A stretch of 40,725 bases of DNA from contig JAPPFE010000031.1 in the NCBI GenBank assembly GCA_028823955.1, positions 1-40,725 on the forward strand, given 5' to 3'. This DNA is from Candidatus Dadabacteria bacterium (GTDB taxonomy: Bacteria > Desulfobacterota_D > UBA1144 > Nemesobacterales > Nemesobacteraceae). The notes beneath the pieces were generated by a model. It did no database searches and was not told the DNA's origin. It saw only the letters and a program-made list of their open reading frames with translations. Positions 13,770 to 20,919 of the stretch are shown here, piece after piece. Numbering within the stretch: position 1 is the first letter of the stretch; every line of letters starts with the position of its first letter. The translations under genes and the position numbers were made by a program.

Positions 13770-13862
13770 CGGGATGTTTAGGAACCGCTTGCCGAGTTCT
13801 GTATGTCGATGGACAAATGCATGTGTCGCCTAATTTAGGGGCCGTGGATAATATAGTCTCTC

Positions 13863-14408
13863 CTAATTATTTTTTTCGCCAGATTTCTTCTTAAGCTCTT
13901 CCCTTCTCTTTTCATGTGCTTTAGGATCATAATTATCTACTCCAGTAAGCCTGTGATGGATTTCTTCGTTAATATCCCAAGCGTTCATGTATATCATGAA
14001 CCTTGCTTGGCTAAAAGTTGAGTTTCTGGTTGCTATATCTATATCAAAGTCTTTGTTCTTGCTTATAGGAGCTCTCATTAACAGGTCTCTCCCTTCCTTT
14101 ATTCTTTCTTTCGAAATTGAATTAGTAGCGGTATAAACTATCCCGTTATCACAGAACATCCCCCAAGGTCTATAAGTTTTTAAACCAAGAGATAGTTTAT
14201 GGGCTTCCATAGCGTTTTTTCCTAGTTCTGACATTTCATCGCCCTCGATGATCCAACAAGTGGTTTTAGTGTTTTTGCTTTTATCCGAACAGGTAAGTTC
14301 ACCCTTCAGGAACGAAGGATGCCTTTGTAAAAGCGAGTTTTCTTCTTTCGCTCTTGCTGGAACAGCAAGCAAGACAAATAGCAGGCTAAGAATCAGTATC
14401 TTGTGCAT
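13863..14408 (-). CDS. Hypothetical secreted/periplasmic protein
   Basis: 181-aa protein of unknown function. A clear signal peptide is present (MHKILILSLLFVLLAVPARA, cleavage likely after ARA at about residue 20). The mature part has three cysteines (positions near 40, 51 and 85), a central WGMFCDNGIVYTATNS segment and a charged, Lys/Glu-rich tail ending in EKRREELKKKSGEKNN. AAGGAG lies 7 bases before the ATG, so translation is well supported. Base composition is visibly more AT-rich than the flanking cysteine desulfurase. It diverges from the small ORFs at 14491. I recognise no family. Confidence 0.75.
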   Translation of the reverse strand: MHKILILSLLFVLLAVPARAKEENSLLQRHPSFLKGELTCSDKSKNTKTTCWIIEGDEMSELGKNAMEAHKLSLGLKTYRPWGMFCDNGIVYTATNSISKERIKEGRDLLMRAPISKNKDFDIDIATRNSTFSQARFMIYMNAWDINEEIHHRLTGVDNYDPKAHEKRREELKKKSGEKNN

Positions 14409-14490
14409 TTTTCATCTCCTTTTCTCTTTCCTCAAGATGTTTTCTGATTTCTAAAAGCAGAGTAACATATATTACTGATTAGGAGATTCT

Positions 14491-14634
14491 ATGCCAGACG
14501 AGAAAGAAACCGAACAACAAATCCCCGATATGTCGTAGATAGAAGATGTTGACGACGTGATAAGAGTTCTTTTCGGAGTTCCCCCCGAAGGGGAGGAAAT
14601 TACCATCTACGAAGATGAAGAGGAAAGTGATTAA
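14491..14634 (+). pseudogene. Small acidic ORF interrupted by an in-frame TAG
   Basis: An ATG with a good AGGAG site (5-base spacing) opens a frame that reads MPDEKETEQQIPDMS, then TAG at 14536-14538, then continues in the same frame for 31 codons (IEDVDDVIRVLFGVPPEGE...) to TAA two bases before the next gene. The whole would be a 47-residue acidic protein. The simplest reading is a nonsense mutation; a GTG restart at 14557 or amber readthrough are alternatives. Its position directly in front of the zinc-ribbon gene suggests the two were one unit. Confidence 0.45.
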
Positions 14635-14636
14635 TT

Positions 14637-14825
14637 ATGCCTCAATCAGAACAAGGAATTATGAAGTGTCCAGTGTGTAAAGAAGGTTCTTTGGTTCCGG
14701 CGAATTGTGTTCTTCTTGCTAGAGAAGGTGGCAAGGAAAGGAAGCTCCCAGTACTGGCTTGCGAGTCTTGTGGAAAATCGGTTGCTATTGATAACGATAC
14801 AGCTTTCATACTTCCTGCAATCTAG
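14637..14825 (+). CDS. Small zinc-ribbon protein
   Basis: 62-aa protein with two knuckles, CPVC near residue 11 and CESC near residue 44, forming a probable four-cysteine zinc ribbon; no family is recognised. An alternative start is the Met at residue 9. It begins two bases after the stop of the preceding small acidic frame, so it is likely translated by coupling. It ends in TAG, which shows that TAG acts as a normal stop in this island. Its role is unknown; small zinc ribbons often mediate DNA, RNA or protein contacts. Confidence 0.65.
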   Translation: MPQSEQGIMKCPVCKEGSLVPANCVLLAREGGKERKLPVLACESCGKSVAIDNDTAFILPAI

Positions 14826-14902
14826 TCCGTCAAGTTAAATACATAATTCCCTAGATTTAACCCATAACCGCCATTTTTGAGGGAGTTGGTTTGAGCTTCG
14901 GG

Positions 14903-14908
14903 TATGAT
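14903..14908 (+). promoter_or_regulatory. -10-like box (TATGAT) close to the sbcB start
   Basis: TATGAT ends 11 bases before the sbcB ATG, which has no Shine-Dalgarno site. The -35 region is poor. The spacing matches the other candidate leaderless starts in this window. Confidence 0.35.
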
Positions 14909-14919
14909 ATGTGCGATTG

Positions 14920-16344
14920 ATGGCCACTACTCTTTATTGGCACGACTATGAGACCTTCGGTCTTGATACCAAGCGCGACCGCCCTGCTAAGTTTGCCGGA
15001 TTGCGTACGGACGAGAATCTAAATCCATTGGATGACCCTTTGGTTGTCCACTGTAAACCAGTACGTGATGTGTTACCTAGCCCTGATGCCTGTCTGATCA
15101 ACGGTATTACTCCGCAAATGATGGATGCACTGGGTGTGCCGGAACCGGAGTTTATAGCCCGTATTCATGTCAAGTTAGAGCAGCCTAGTACCTGTGGCGT
15201 GGGCTATAACAGTCTGAGATTTGATGATGAAATAACTCGCCATGCCTTGTATCGAAATTTCTATGATCCTTATGCTCGTGAATGGAAAAACGGCAATTCG
15301 CGTTGGGATATTATCGATTTAGTGCGCATGACCTATGCTTTACGGCCGGAAGGGATTCAGTGGCCAATGCGGGAAGACGGCAGGCCTAGTTTTCGCCTTA
15401 AGGATGTTGCAGCGGCCAATGGTATTTTCCACGATCCCCATGACGCGCTGTCCGATGTACGTGCCACAATTGCTATTGCCCGCCTGATTCGTGAGCGGCA
15501 GCGGGATATCTATGATTGGCTTTTCCAGCTTCGCGACAGAAAAATAGCGAAAAAACAATTGAACTTGGATAATCATGATCCCGTTTTGCATACTTCGTCG
15601 CTGTATCCGTTGGAAACCGGTTGCACAACCCTCGTGATGCCGTTGGTTTGTGAGCCCGACAACAAAAACGGCATTTTGGTTTATGATTTACGTCAGGATC
15701 CGAAACCTTTCATGAGCTTGGACGAAGAGAGCCTCCGTGATTGTCTGTTCATCTCTGCTGAGGAATTGCCAGAAGGGAAACAAAAACTTCCGGTTAAGTC
15801 CGTGAGGATCAACAAATGTCCTGCCCTTGCGCCCAAGAGTGTTCTAGGAGTGTTAGATGCCGAGCGCATAGCTATTAATCTAGATGCCTGCGATCGACAT
15901 TGGAAGATTTTGAGTACTAATGAGGAGTTTATGCGTAGAGTTGGGAAAGCTTACAGTAACAGGGAATTTAGTTCCTCCGGAGATGTAGACCTTGCGCTAT
16001 ATGAAGGTTTTTTCCATCCTGAGGATATTTCTTTATTTGCCGATATTCGTGCTGCCTCTCCGCAGGAGTTGTCCCATGCTTGTTATGATTTCCGTGATGA
16101 AAGGTTGCCCGAACTGCTGTTTCGTTATAGAGCGCGAAACTGGCCGGAGACTTTGTCAGTTGAGGAAACGCAACGCTGGGAAGAATTTTGTTACCATCGT
16201 ATCCATAATGGAGATGAAAGAGGCAGTATTACCTTGGATCATTATTACGAGCGGATAGCACTCTTGCGTGATGAGCATAGAGGAGACGCAGATGTGCAAC
16301 GTGTACTTAATGCTTTAGATGAATGGGGCCGAAAGATTGCATGA
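14920..16344 (+). CDS. sbcB: Exonuclease I (3'-5' single-strand DNA exonuclease)
   Basis: 474-aa exonuclease I of the DEDDh superfamily. It degrades single-stranded DNA 3' to 5' and acts in recombination and mismatch repair. The DxE motif is WHDYETFG (Asp9, Glu11), the second acidic motif is GYNSLRFDDE, and the third is HDPHDALSDVRA with the H-x4-D pair. The following SH3-like and C-terminal helical domains (FFHPEDISLFADIRA, LPELLFRYRARNWPETLSVEE, W..FC..R) match E. coli ExoI along the length, which is nearly the same. This family is most typical of Gammaproteobacteria, and the gene is more AT-rich in codon use than flanking core genes, so transfer is likely. No Shine-Dalgarno site. Its stop overlaps a small downstream ORF. 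Confidence 0.92.
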   Translation: MATTLYWHDYETFGLDTKRDRPAKFAGLRTDENLNPLDDPLVVHCKPVRDVLPSPDACLINGITPQMMDALGVPEPEFIARIHVKLEQPSTCGVGYNSLRFDDEITRHALYRNFYDPYAREWKNGNSRWDIIDLVRMTYALRPEGIQWPMREDGRPSFRLKDVAAANGIFHDPHDALSDVRATIAIARLIRERQRDIYDWLFQLRDRKIAKKQLNLDNHDPVLHTSSLYPLETGCTTLVMPLVCEPDNKNGILVYDLRQDPKPFMSLDEESLRDCLFISAEELPEGKQKLPVKSVRINKCPALAPKSVLGVLDAERIAINLDACDRHWKILSTNEEFMRRVGKAYSNREFSSSGDVDLALYEGFFHPEDISLFADIRAASPQELSHACYDFRDERLPELLFRYRARNWPETLSVEETQRWEEFCYHRIHNGDERGSITLDHYYERIALLRDEHRGDADVQRVLNALDEWGRKIA

Positions 16345-16529
16345 ATTCACTGAAATACAAAGATAATTCTCCTGTTTTAGATAGTATTAGCCGGGGAGTA
16401 AAGCAGTCTCTGGGCTCTTTCAACCCCATTTTGGTTCTCAGCGTTCCGCTGGATAATGGCAAAACCACAGAATATCTTCACAGTCTCAACCCACGTACTA
16501 TAAAAGCGGACAATTCTACTTGCTATTAA
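16341..16529 (+). CDS. Possible small ORF overlapping the end of sbcB
   Basis: A 62-codon frame begins with an ATG that overlaps the sbcB stop in ATGA, the arrangement expected for translational coupling. The product (including GSFNPILVLSVPLDNGKT) has no recognised family, signal peptide or membrane segment. It may be a real small gene, or the decayed start of a longer one. Support comes only from the overlap and continued AT-rich composition. Between its end and the next gene I see no other feature. Confidence 0.3.
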   Translation: MNSLKYKDNSPVLDSISRGVKQSLGSFNPILVLSVPLDNGKTTEYLHSLNPRTIKADNSTCY

Positions 16530-16576
16530 CAGACTCTGACACTTGATGAATTTGATTTATCAAACCGGAGAATCTT

Positions 16577-18085
16577 TCAGATGTTTTTACCGCAGACTCC
16601 AGTGATCGGGCACTCTTTGCAATTAGGATTGTTTTTGAAGCAATACTCCTTTCCAATTACCCAAGCCGGTTCATCCAGTATTGCCGGAAAATCCGGATTC
16701 AATTCCCTTGCCACTTCCACTACAGTCTGCTTGCCTTCAGTTAGGCCAGTGCGTCGAAATACTTTCTTTGTGTGAACATTCTCTTTGGGAACTAAAAAGG
16801 GAAACGATTTTTTTCCTTCAAGCTCCTTGTAATCGCGAACTAGAATCATGACGGCCATGCTGGCAAGCTGCTCTCCTATGCCGTGGAATTCTTTAAATCT
16901 TTTTTTAATTTCTTCAATGTTGTTTTTTCCCACTTGCCATATCTTTCTCGGGTCGCCGTCATACTTCTCAAGCATAAGTCCGGCTGCACGCTTAAGATTG
17001 TCCGTCATTTCCCCGTGATAAAAGTGCAGGGCTTTTCCCCCGTCTCCCGATTTCATGAATTCATATAGTTCGTCACGGTTTGTTACATCGATTATTTTCC
17101 AGAAATCCGTTTCCCCGCTACCATATTCTCTCACTATAAGTTTGCCGGAGTTCCAAGCCACGGATGCTTTGACCATGCGGTCAAGCATGACGCCGACGAA
17201 AAAATGGTTTGCCTCTTTTCTTGTAGATACTTTCTTCGGCATCTCGAAATCTTCTGAATGATCCAGACCTTTTGCGAACTCTATCAGGGCCTCGGAAATT
17301 TCGCGCTTACTGATCGTCCGTGCATCCTTGAGTCCGCCGATGTCTATGTTCCCCCTCGCAAGTTCTCTCGCGCATTCGTAATGCCAGTTTGTCCGGGTCT
17401 TCGTGGAAAAGCGACGAAGCCTGCACCCGGGTGCGTCCGGAAGAGTCTTTGAGTTGTAAAAGACTATCCGCTCAGACTTTGTACCTCTTGTAAGAGAGCA
17501 AAACAGCGGGATGTAATTCTTTCCGCCCAGAAAAACGACCGGCTTTTCAATATCTTTAGGAAGTATTAGATCCTTATAAAGATCCTGACGACGTCTGCGC
17601 TTGTAGGTATCGGCTTCGGCGGAAAACGTGATGTCGTAGTTTGGCGTGAGGAAATCAGCGGATATTAGGCCCCAGCCCGCTGATAGGATGAAGATGTTTT
17701 GAATACCAAAGACTTTAACAAGCTCTCGATAGATGTCCTAGTGGGGTGGGCGGGGTTTGTAGAGTTCGCAAGCTGGAAGCAGTCCTAGTGGGTTCCCCGA
17801 AACGGTATCTTTGTATTTTCTGTTGTACTTAATCAGCAGGTCTCTCCACGAGAGTTCAGAAAGGGCGGAGTCGTCTGGGTGTCTATAGATGGTTGATCCG
17901 TCCGGCGGTGCGTTCTGCGGGTCGGCGCCGAACGTGACTTTTCTTCTGTTCTCTGTGAGCATATGTCCCGCGGACTGATCTTTCCCTGCGGCGCACTGGA
18001 TCACGACAATCATGTCTTTCACGCTTCCGGGCGATTTTATCTCTCCGGCCTGCTGGGCGATCAGTTTCGAAGCCTTGGTAATCAT
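16577..18085 (-). pseudogene. YaaA/DUF6884-like domain fused to endonuclease-III-like domain, split by one TAG
   Basis: One minus-strand frame of 502 codons runs without interruption except for TAG at 17740-17738. Before the amber (about 115 residues) is MIVVIQCAAGKD, then KYNRKYKDT and LLPACELYKPRP; after it comes DIYRELVKVFGIQNIFILSAGWGLISAD and PNYDITFS. Together these look like a YaaA/DUF6884-type domain. The C-terminal about 220 residues are an HhH-GPD fold: FHGIGEQLASMAV and a [4Fe-4S] loop CFKNNPNCKECPITGVC with exact C-x6-C-x2-C-x5-C spacing as in endonuclease III. The usual catalytic Lys of the hairpin (GxGxKxA) appears to be Gln, and the catalytic Asp region reads NVHTKKVFRR. Alternatives to a pseudogene are two separate proteins (restart at the in-frame ATG at 17242), readthrough, or a sequencing error. 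An upstream 29-codon ORF overlaps the start in ATGA. Confidence 0.65.
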
Positions 18086-18171
18086 GCCATGACCCACTTT
18101 TCAAAGCGATCAGTTTCCAAGTCATTGCACATTTTTTCGTAAGTAGCAATTTCCTCTTTCAGGTTGGCCAT
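18082..18171 (-). CDS. 29-aa ORF coupled to the DUF6884-HhH gene
   Basis: ATG with AGGAG 8 bases upstream opens a 29-residue frame (MANLKEEIATYEK... ending FEKWVMA) whose stop overlaps the next gene's ATG in ATGA. The peptide resembles, from memory, the first third of small DUF5678-like proteins (EEIxxYExxxxDLE...KWV), so it may be a truncated relative rather than a dedicated leader peptide. The Shine-Dalgarno site and overlap support translation. Confidence 0.4.
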   Translation of the reverse strand: MANLKEEIATYEKMCNDLETDRFEKWVMA

Positions 18172-18191
18172 GTCTCTCTCTCCTGATCAAT

Positions 18192-18221
18192 ACTATATGA
18201 ATAGTGTTTGAACAAAACCAA
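18192..18221 (-). promoter_or_regulatory. Promoter of the DUF6884-HhH unit with overlapping inverted repeat
   Basis: On the minus strand TTGGTT (18221-18216), an 18-base spacer and TATAGT (18197-18192) precede the Shine-Dalgarno site of the 29-aa ORF. A small perfect inverted repeat ACTAT-ATGA-ATAGT (18192-18205) overlaps the -10 box and could be an operator. Confidence 0.45.
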
Positions 18222-18276
18222 AGAAAAGTATCCAAAAGCAGGTTTTATGGATTTCAGTATATTTTTCCAAGCAAAG

Positions 18277-19338
18277 TTAGGGATAAAGCGGGACGGACTC
18301 AAGTCCCAGGCTCTCGGGAAGGTCGAGCATGATGTTCATGCTCTGTATCGCTTGGCCGGAGGCTCCCTTTACCAGATTATCTATGGCGCAGACAATTACC
18401 GCGGTTTTTTTCCCTGGGTTTGTCCTTACTCCTATGTCGCAGAAGTTTGAACCCCTGACGCAGGAAGTGTTCGGAAAAGTTCCCTCGGGAAGAATCCTCA
18501 CGAAGGGCGAGTTCTCGTAGAATTGTCCCAGGGCATCCAGCAGTTCCCGGGTCGCATGGCTTCCAGAGAGGTTTACGTATATTGTCGAGAGTATTCCCCT
18601 GTTTATCGGTACGAGATGCGGGGTGAAGGTGACTTCCACCTTGCTGCCTAGAAAATCCGAGAGTCCCTGCTCTATTTCAGGGGCATGACGGTGTTCGCCT
18701 ACCTTGTAGGCTTTCATTGCTTCGGAGACCTCGCAGAAATGAAGATCAAGCGAAGGGTTCCTTCCTGCTCCCGAAGCTCCGGATTTGGAATCAATTATGA
18801 TTCCCTCCGTCTCCACCATGCCGTTTTCAAGAAGCGGCGCGAGCGGAAGGATCGAAGAGGTGGGATAGCATCCGGGGTTTGCCACCAGTTTTGTCTCCGA
18901 TATCCGTTCCGCATGCAGTTCGGGGATTCCGTAGACGGCGTTTTCGAGAACATGGGCGCACGGATGATCCCCGTACCAGTCCCTGTAGGTCCCTTCCCTG
19001 AGGCGGAAATCCGCCCCGAGATCAATTATCCTTACGTCCCTTCCGTAAATTTCTTCTATGAGTTCGGCCGATGCTCCGTGCGGAAGCGCGGCGAATACCA
19101 CGTCGGTATCGTCCGGAATGAGCGAGGGGTCCGAACTGCTGAGCTCGAGATCGGCTATTTCTCCAAGGTGCGGAAAGACCTCGGCCAGAGCACGACCTGC
19201 GTGCCTCGACGCTGTTAAATGCGAAATACTGGCCCGGGGATGTCCCTTAAGGAGCCTTATGAGCTCCGCTCCGGTGTAGCCGCTTGCTCCCAGAATACAT
19301 ACGTTAAGATTTTGGGAATTATCTACTTGACTAACCAT
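18277..19338 (-). CDS. argC: N-acetyl-gamma-glutamyl-phosphate reductase
   Basis: 353-aa ArgC. It reduces N-acetylglutamyl phosphate to the semialdehyde with NADPH, step three of arginine synthesis. The Rossmann motif NVCILGASGYTGAELIRLL is at residues 12-30, the catalytic Cys157 lies in LVANPGCYPTSS, and the C-terminal signature TSCVRGSNFCDIG and NLVKGASGQAIQSMN is present. The chosen ATG has GAGG 7 bases upstream; a GTG eight codons earlier is possible. The extra N-terminal residues MVSQVDNSQN are encoded by one arm of the 25-bp inverted repeat that bounds the tnpB element, and the start codon overlaps the tnpB stop. The element therefore abuts or supplies the translation start. No other arg gene is in the window. 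Confidence 0.93.
   Translation of the reverse strand: MVSQVDNSQNLNVCILGASGYTGAELIRLLKGHPRASISHLTASRHAGRALAEVFPHLGEIADLELSSSDPSLIPDDTDVVFAALPHGASAELIEEIYGRDVRIIDLGADFRLREGTYRDWYGDHPCAHVLENAVYGIPELHAERISETKLVANPGCYPTSSILPLAPLLENGMVETEGIIIDSKSGASGAGRNPSLDLHFCEVSEAMKAYKVGEHRHAPEIEQGLSDFLGSKVEVTFTPHLVPINRGILSTIYVNLSGSHATRELLDALGQFYENSPFVRILPEGTFPNTSCVRGSNFCDIGVRTNPGKKTAVIVCAIDNLVKGASGQAIQSMNIMLDLPESLGLESVPLYP
19312..19336 (-). repeat. Inverted repeat arm at the 3' end of the tnpB element
   Basis: Read on the minus strand this arm is GGTTAGTCAAGTA followed by GATAATTCCCAA. It matches the arm at 20576-20600 at 23 of 25 positions, in opposite orientation. It contains the tnpB stop and the first codons of argC. 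The TCAA inside it resembles the right-end cleavage tetranucleotide of IS608-type elements. Confidence 0.7.
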
Positions 19339-20566
19339 CTGGCTGCCTCGCATCAATTTCACGGGTCGTCGGAGTCCTTTTAAGGACGGAACGCTCCTCG
19401 CCGTGCAGCTGCGCCATTCCCAGACGCCTTATGTTAATCGCGGCGTTCGTGTCCGCGTTGGACACAAACCCGCAACTCACACACTGGAACCACGCTTGGG
19501 TTTTGCGGTTCTCTTTTTCTGCGTATCCGCAATGCGAACACGTCTGAGATGTATACGCGGGATTCACTTTTATCAGTCTCCCGCACTTGTACTCAAGATT
19601 TCTTCTTATCTCCCCCATGGCGGTATCAAGAATCGCCCTGTTAATCCCTGATTTCTGCTTCACGTTCCTCCCCGGATTCTCTATCGTTCCCTTTGCGGAA
19701 GCAGTCATGTCTTTTACCCTGAGGTCTTCTGTAACTATAGTTCCGCACTTCTCCGAAATCTCCTCTGTTGTCTTGTGAACCCAGTCCTTCCGTGTATTGG
19801 CTATTTCCCTGCTTACCTTCCTGAGTTTCTTCTTTGTGTCTTTCTGTCTGTTAGACCCCTTTACCTGCCTTGCCATCCTCCGCTGATAGCGCTTCTGTTT
19901 TGCTTCTTTTTTCTTTAAATCGGGAAGGAAGTAGAAATGTCCATCAGAAGTGGCGACCTGGCGCGCGTTCATGTCAACTCCCAGAACCTCGCCGTCATCC
20001 GCTCTTTTCTCCATTTCAACCTCGTAGGAAACAAAGGCACGCCACCTGTGCCCGTCATGGCGAAGCACCACCTGTTTCGGTGCACCGCTCTTCCATGGAT
20101 TGCCTCCCCTGCGGGTCATCTTTACCCAGCCGACCCTGGGGATAAGAAGCAGGGAGTATTTCCTATCGATATTCTTTATCCTGAAGTTCTCTTTGCCTGG
20201 AAGCGTAAAACCAGGGGCAGTCCTCTTTCTGCTTCTGGGCTTCGGAAAACCCTTCTTGCCAGCTATCGCTTCTTTCAGTGCGTCAGCAAAATATTTGAGA
20301 GTATATTTTATGGGATTGGCGGGAAGCTCCCTGAGCCAGTCCGTCTCGTGTCTTAGCCTTGTGAACTCAACGCCGAGGGAGAAATAACTGATATGGGGTC
20401 TCTGCCCCTTGCCGTTTTTGAATGCCTGGTAGTCAGCAAGATTCTTCTCCCTGAAGTAATTCCAGACGAATCTGCAAGCTCCCGCTATCTGGAACATTTT
20501 CCTTGCCTTCATCTTAGTGATTGGCAAAACGACAAACTCTACTGTACGTATTTCTTTAGCAGTCAT
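19331..20566 (-). CDS. tnpB: RNA-guided endonuclease TnpB family protein
   Basis: 411-aa TnpB. The family uses an RNA made from the element's 3' end to guide DNA cleavage, and is the ancestor of Cas12. The N-terminal wedge/REC part includes RFVWNYFRE. The RuvC triad is intact: Asp198 in GVDMNARQ, Glu280 in IVTEDLRVKDM and Asp372 in NADTNAAINI. The zinc ribbon has C343-x2-C346 and C362-x2-C365. Length is usual and no frameshift is seen, so the nuclease is probably active. A hairpin near the end of the gene (19374-19387) lies where the guide RNA scaffold would be. TATACT on the minus strand ends 18 bases before the ATG; no Shine-Dalgarno site. Solo, without tnpA. Confidence 0.92.
   Translation of the reverse strand: MTAKEIRTVEFVVLPITKMKARKMFQIAGACRFVWNYFREKNLADYQAFKNGKGQRPHISYFSLGVEFTRLRHETDWLRELPANPIKYTLKYFADALKEAIAGKKGFPKPRSRKRTAPGFTLPGKENFRIKNIDRKYSLLLIPRVGWVKMTRRGGNPWKSGAPKQVVLRHDGHRWRAFVSYEVEMEKRADDGEVLGVDMNARQVATSDGHFYFLPDLKKKEAKQKRYQRRMARQVKGSNRQKDTKKKLRKVSREIANTRKDWVHKTTEEISEKCGTIVTEDLRVKDMTASAKGTIENPGRNVKQKSGINRAILDTAMGEIRRNLEYKCGRLIKVNPAYTSQTCSHCGYAEKENRKTQAWFQCVSCGFVSNADTNAAINIRRLGMAQLHGEERSVLKRTPTTREIDARQPDG
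19374..19387 (-). ncRNA. Hairpin in the putative tnpB guide RNA (omega RNA) scaffold
   Basis: A 14-base perfect palindrome (GTCCTT/AAGGAC arms) sits in the last codons of tnpB, about 40 bases before the element end. TnpB guide RNAs derive from this part of the element, with the guide taken from flanking DNA. Here the flank would be the start of argC. The RNA itself is inferred from position only. Confidence 0.35.
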
Positions 20567-20575
20567 GATAATGCG

Positions 20576-20600
20576 GGTTAGTCAAGTATATAGTTCCCAA
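20576..20600 (+). repeat. Inverted repeat arm upstream of tnpB
   Basis: GGTTAGTCAAGTA followed by TATAGTTCCCAA. It pairs with the arm at 19312-19336 (23 of 25 identical, inverted). On the minus strand it supplies a TATACT box upstream of the tnpB start. Confidence 0.7.
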
Positions 20601-20919
20601 GTTTTTCATCACCCTCAAACGATACTACGGGAATCAGGAAAATCAATCCGTATTCCTCAACAAAGACATGCTCCCGGGAAGCGGCCGGGGAGACTTTTCG
20701 TTTTCGGGAATTCTCTGGGTTCTGGTACAATTACAAGAGGTGTTTTGAGGCTGCGGTTTACCGCAGACCGGGTGGAAACTCCGTTTAGCAAGGCAAGATA
20801 AGGTTTCAAATCCGCGGGAGGAAAGCCTGCCGGTACCGAAAAGATATGCCGCTTGATCAAGTTCCCGTACGCTCGGGATCATAATTGGGCGCACACCAGG
20901 AATTGTCGACCGATTCTCT
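20601..20919. other. Non-coding gap between the tnpB element and the RND pump
   Basis: No convincing gene on either strand. It holds one copy of a hairpin-containing repeat (20725-20795), and further downstream a short GGAGGAAAGCCTGCCGG segment and a weak CATAAT -10-like box. No clear Shine-Dalgarno site precedes the pump gene. Confidence 0.6.
20725..20795 (+). repeat. Hairpin-containing repeat, copy A
   Basis: Begins GTACAATTACAA, then a GTTTTGAGG stretch, a perfect 6-bp hairpin CTGCGG-TTTA-CCGCAG (20751-20766) and ACCGGGTGGAAA. Copy B after the pump gene shares the first 12 bases exactly and the overall order, but its hairpin has different paired bases, as expected of a structured RNA. TACAAT could also be a -10 box. 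Confidence 0.5.

Follow-up and report, generated by a model that had tools for sequence, protein, structure and literature searches.

On the minus strand of the window, as we call the whole 40,725-nucleotide stretch of Candidatus Dadabacteria DNA analysed here, a DUF6884/YaaA-like domain is joined to an HhH-GPD, endonuclease III-like domain in a gene that is probably a newly interrupted, defence-related fusion. The explanation that we favour, with a probability of roughly 0.55, is that two complete accessory proteins were fused, arrived on an insertion of about 4.4 kb and were recently interrupted by an amber codon, the gene now being most likely a young pseudogene or reduced remnant. The preliminary description of this DNA had suggested an undescribed enzyme that repairs damaged or modified bases.

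Codon-by-codon translation from 18085 to 16577 bears out the earlier reading of a frame open but for one TAG (Table 1). This is the single internal stop, whereas the remaining five frames have 12-28 stops each. The 386 codons that follow the TAG are open, which would happen by chance with a probability of about 8e-10, given the base composition. The TAG had been placed inside a domain, and uninterrupted homologues do align on either side of it, with about 40-60% identity. Immediately 5' of the TAG lie five additional, C-rich codons (PRPPH), which the alignment shows to be missing in all uninterrupted homologues. Between the TAG and 17242 there is no ATG, GTG or TTG, which leaves the latter half of the YaaA-like domain without a normal start from which it could be made separately. 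Just ahead of the fusion gene, a 29-codon ORF may be a gene remnant, perhaps the start of a truncated gene.

Table 1. Features of the interrupted fusion gene and its surroundings, in window coordinates.
Feature	Position	Strand	Details
Accessory insertion, about 4.4 kb	13842..18276	.	181-aa ORF, exonuclease I (SbcB-like) gene, fusion gene
29-codon ORF	18082..18171	-	Purine-rich leader; stop overlaps fusion-gene ATG (ATGA)
Interrupted fusion gene	16577..18085	-	ATG 18085, amber 17740-17738, TGA 16579-16577; 502 codons
DUF6884/YaaA-like domain	17336..18016	-	Residues 24-250; homologous to M57A-like partner of PADLOC PDC-M57B
CxxxK motif (C31..K35), upstream of TAG	17981..17995	-	Translation; motif from PMC11701544
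15 extra C-rich nucleotides (PRPPH)	17741..17755	-	Homologue alignment
Internal TAG, splits YaaA-like domain	17738..17740	-	Translation and alignment
LSAxxG motif (L134..G139), downstream of TAG	17669..17686	-	Translation; motif from PMC11701544
HhH-GPD domain	16580..17320	-	Residues 256-502; stand-alone relatives L074 (242 aa), L080 (241 aa)
Sole long ATG/GTG/TTG ORF after TAG, 221 aa	16577..17242	-	HhH-GPD domain minus first ~25 residues
Helix-hairpin-helix motif HGIGEQLASMA	16853..16885	-	Residues 401-411; without Lys at lyase position
Asn436 (AAT) at catalytic-Asp position of HhH-GPD glycosylases	16778..16780	-	Alignment
Four-cysteine [4Fe-4S] loop	16592..16642	-	C482-x6-C489-x2-C492-x5-C498; endonuclease III spacing

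An M57A homologue from an Acidobacteriaceae genome (L012:3687-4364) is likewise split by a TAG, in a column that is Tyr in other members; judging from the alignment, this is treated as an event independent of the window TAG. Programmed or suppressor amber readthrough, giving a regulated full-length protein, would account for a frame that continues past the TAG with the domain conserved on either side, and the Acidobacteriaceae gene has its TAG in the same part. That TAG, however, stands in another column, PylS is absent, and on the contig TAG is an ordinary stop that terminates 7 of the 31 window genes; we regard readthrough as very improbable. Pyrrolysine recoding was rejected because PylS was not found in the genome, where the PylS N-terminal model gave no match and the C-terminal model only a match below its cut-off, as in most control genomes.

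The description of the N-terminal half as DUF6884/YaaA-like was right. Pfam DUF6884 (PF21818) matched with E=1.4e-5 and 25.7 bits, below its 30-bit gathering cut-off, and the first-domain homologues have DUF6884 scores similar to that of the window. The published DUF6884 motifs, CxxxK and LSAxxG (PMC11701544), are both present, one on either side of the TAG, which by these motifs parts the two halves of a putative YaaA-type active site. A weak match to PADLOC PDLC04712 (M57A-like; E=1.6e-5) is to the same family as the genes that lie beside strong M57B matches. Pfam YaaA (PF03883) did not match the window and matched one homologue (L030) weakly (E=0.013), and a Foldseek search gave no significant match. 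An AlphaFold2 model with the TAG read as Gln reached a pLDDT of about 90 over residues 21-250. Most first-domain homologues are uninterrupted proteins of about 220 aa; the preliminary description had considered that homologues might always be split in two at this codon, and in fact they run through the TAG position, although they do end before the HhH part. The YaaA-like domain retains 51 of its 52 strongly conserved positions, as intact homologues do, which indicates that the break is recent, or else an assembly or strain difference.

At 20 of the 24 homologue loci with a checkable flank, the immediate neighbour of the first-domain gene, or its fusion partner, is M57B. The M57B models match the partner genes at E ~1e-80, and none of these loci has an HhH-GPD gene. 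This adjacency indicates that the homologues form the predicted anti-phage pair PDC-M57, in which PDC stands for a predicted phage defence candidate (the term is explained in PMC11514479); we found no published experimental test of the pair. A functional link is supported by a Kiritimatiellales locus (L021:3843-5816), where M57B and M57A are a single 658-aa protein. The pair was also found on a phage contig (L035) and solitary first-domain homologues on Roseomonas plasmids, and ten neighbours were tested, of which three look like defence genes (GmrSD, SIR2 and a DUF4011/Hhe-like protein). YaaA had earlier been brought in for its link to oxidative damage; these homologues connect the first domain instead with a candidate phage-defence pair carried by mobile DNA.

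The whole genome of the window was searched for M57B, and no match was obtained. Within the same genus, one genome (G008) has an intact M57 pair including M57B, and in another (G009) the first domain is present only as a 130-codon fragment. M57B itself has a GIY-YIG-like motif order (GVYFF, VRVGT, Arg, His, Glu) with a matching order of strands and helices, and may at motif level be a GIY-YIG nuclease. Its structure model (pLDDT 88) gave no significant Foldseek match against PDB and viral models, nor did M57B match Pfam or PDB sequence profiles.

The C-terminal half was correctly recognised as endonuclease III-like. NCBIfam TIGR03252, 'HhH-GPD-type base excision DNA repair protein', matched with E=5e-13, under the family's own cut-off, a profile of three sequences (the window and two relatives) matched endonuclease III in the PDB with E=7.5e-5, and the four cysteines are spaced as in endonuclease III. 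For both domains, the profile matches agree with one another, although their strength is weak to moderate. In the AlphaFold model of the fusion the HhH part is poor (pLDDT ~45), so its fold is assigned from sequence. The Lys of bifunctional glycosylase/lyases is absent, the HhH reading GIGEQLA, and in the catalytic-Asp column (DVH), which is Asp in five of the six other aligned members and Gly in one, the window has Asn. That one relative of the HhH part, L081, also lacks the catalytic Asp is a point against the favoured explanation.

Relatives of the HhH part are scarce: nothing beyond weak endonuclease III-like matches was found in 58 genomes of the phylum, the 369 genomes from the class to which genome G081 belongs yielded one relative, and 6 of 64 genomes in the phylum of genome G093 have one. 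Most stand alone (241-242 aa) and the others have a different N-terminal extension, which indicates that the window joins two complete proteins; one directly follows the other, with hardly any linker. Uninterrupted homologues with the same two-domain order were searched for, as the preliminary description had proposed, and not found, both parts being mostly separate proteins. Among the collections searched, the fusion occurs in the window only, with no further copy in the 58 genomes of the phylum, in 26 genomes holding first-domain homologues, in the 369 and 64 genomes just mentioned, or on the viral contigs, plasmids and phages searched. A larger genome contig collection was covered by one scan with patterns taken from all along the 386 residues downstream of the TAG; the loci that it yielded match the YaaA part, not the HhH part.

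If the HhH-GPD half alone were expressed from the ATG at 17242, giving a DNA-binding [4Fe-4S] protein of 221 aa with the YaaA-like half as a dead leader, this would agree with the mostly stand-alone or differently extended relatives, and also with the position of this ATG, which is the earliest start downstream of the TAG and lies near where the two domains meet. The product would, however, be without the first ~25 residues of the family and with Asn for the catalytic Asp, and no strong ribosome-binding site is visible, so that we find this quite unlikely.

An assembly error or a strain polymorphism at the TAG is possible. The population would then have an intact, working fusion that binds modified or damaged DNA, and the TAG would be a mistake or a minority variant of the draft. 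In line with this explanation, the YaaA-like domain has its conserved positions intact, the frame stays open before and after the TAG, and the HhH part retains all four cysteines and the HhH motif; but the five extra codons by the TAG mean that more than a single base sets this region apart, the catalytic Asp is still Asn, and the same genus has a decayed copy in G009. We therefore give it a minor share of the probability, well behind the young pseudogene or remnant, which follows from the loss of the second YaaA-like half to the TAG together with the Asn at the catalytic position. Against decay stand the 51 of 52 conserved positions and the 386 open codons, and decay is thus at most very recent. 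As for the repair enzyme proposed earlier, its domains and the position of the TAG stand, but a working function is not well supported: the fusion is unique in our searches, the TAG is an ordinary stop, the active-site halves are separated and the catalytic Asp has become Asn.

The gene lies in DNA that is accessory in this genus. In seven genomes of the genus, the sequence corresponding to ~13795-13841 runs directly into 18277-18279, and this uninterrupted site indicates that ~13842-18276 is an insertion in this genome. The ends of the insertion share about 6 bp, TTAGGG, and it includes an AT-rich ORF.

The domains, the fusion boundary, the TAG, the insertion site, the lack of M57B and the Asp-to-Asn change are observed; what the protein did before the interruption, and that this function was lost, we infer as follows. 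Its first part is a YaaA/DUF6884-like domain of a type whose usual partner is M57B, in the predicted PDC-M57, and its second part is an HhH-GPD protein with a [4Fe-4S] loop. The YaaA-like cleft would bind DNA and read a flipped or modified base, and the HhH-GPD module would replace the M57B nuclease as the partner that attacks or anchors to DNA. Foreign DNA, from a phage or plasmid, is a likelier ancestral target than housekeeping repair. A one-protein variant of PDC-M57 may even be at work today, with the HhH-GPD [4Fe-4S] module in the place of M57B, the YaaA-like and glycosylase-like domains attacking modified phage DNA, and the full-length protein coming from a sense codon in the population or from amber readthrough; we hold this to be unlikely.

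The gene shares with PDC-M57 an M57A-like first domain and the character of accessory, horizontally spread genes, and differs in that its genome is without M57B, an HhH-GPD domain is fused instead and a TAG interrupts it. With DUF6884 proteins such as B. subtilis YfjM, through which DUF6884 has been linked to DNA lesions (PMC11701544), and with E. coli YaaA it has in common the CxxxK and LSAxxG motifs and an expected YaaA-type fold, but it falls below the Pfam cut-off, its motifs are split by the TAG and it has a C-terminal fusion. Weak local similarity to models of DpdC, of the Dpd 7-deazaguanine DNA modification system, was also seen (E ~1e-4), although over a short stretch only, and no dpd genes were seen among the annotated window genes. 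The HhH motif and four-cysteine loop are those of endonuclease III and TIGR03252 glycosylases, from which the Asn, the missing lyase Lys and the score under the TIGR03252 cut-off set it apart. Brig1 is a precedent for a DNA glycosylase directed at phage DNA (PMC11078745), as an analogy only, since it is another glycosylase, compared in that paper with uracil DNA glycosylase.

The window copy is most likely non-functional, and is valuable for directing attention to the M57 family. With M57B as partner in many lineages and a glycosylase-type domain fused here, DUF6884 sits beside DNA-attacking partners. From this follows the testable proposal that the YaaA-like domains of such loci recognise unusual bases on behalf of a nuclease or glycosylase.

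Two neighbouring elements were also observed. The exonuclease I (SbcB-like) gene (14911-16344), which was not found in 14 relatives searched, matches PADLOC RTasSbcB (DRT-associated) with E=2.5e-54, and no reverse transcriptase was noticed beside it. A second insertion (19314-20720), not in same-genus genomes and just upstream of a semialdehyde dehydrogenase gene, carries a gene of the IS605 OrfB/TnpB type (19331-20566).
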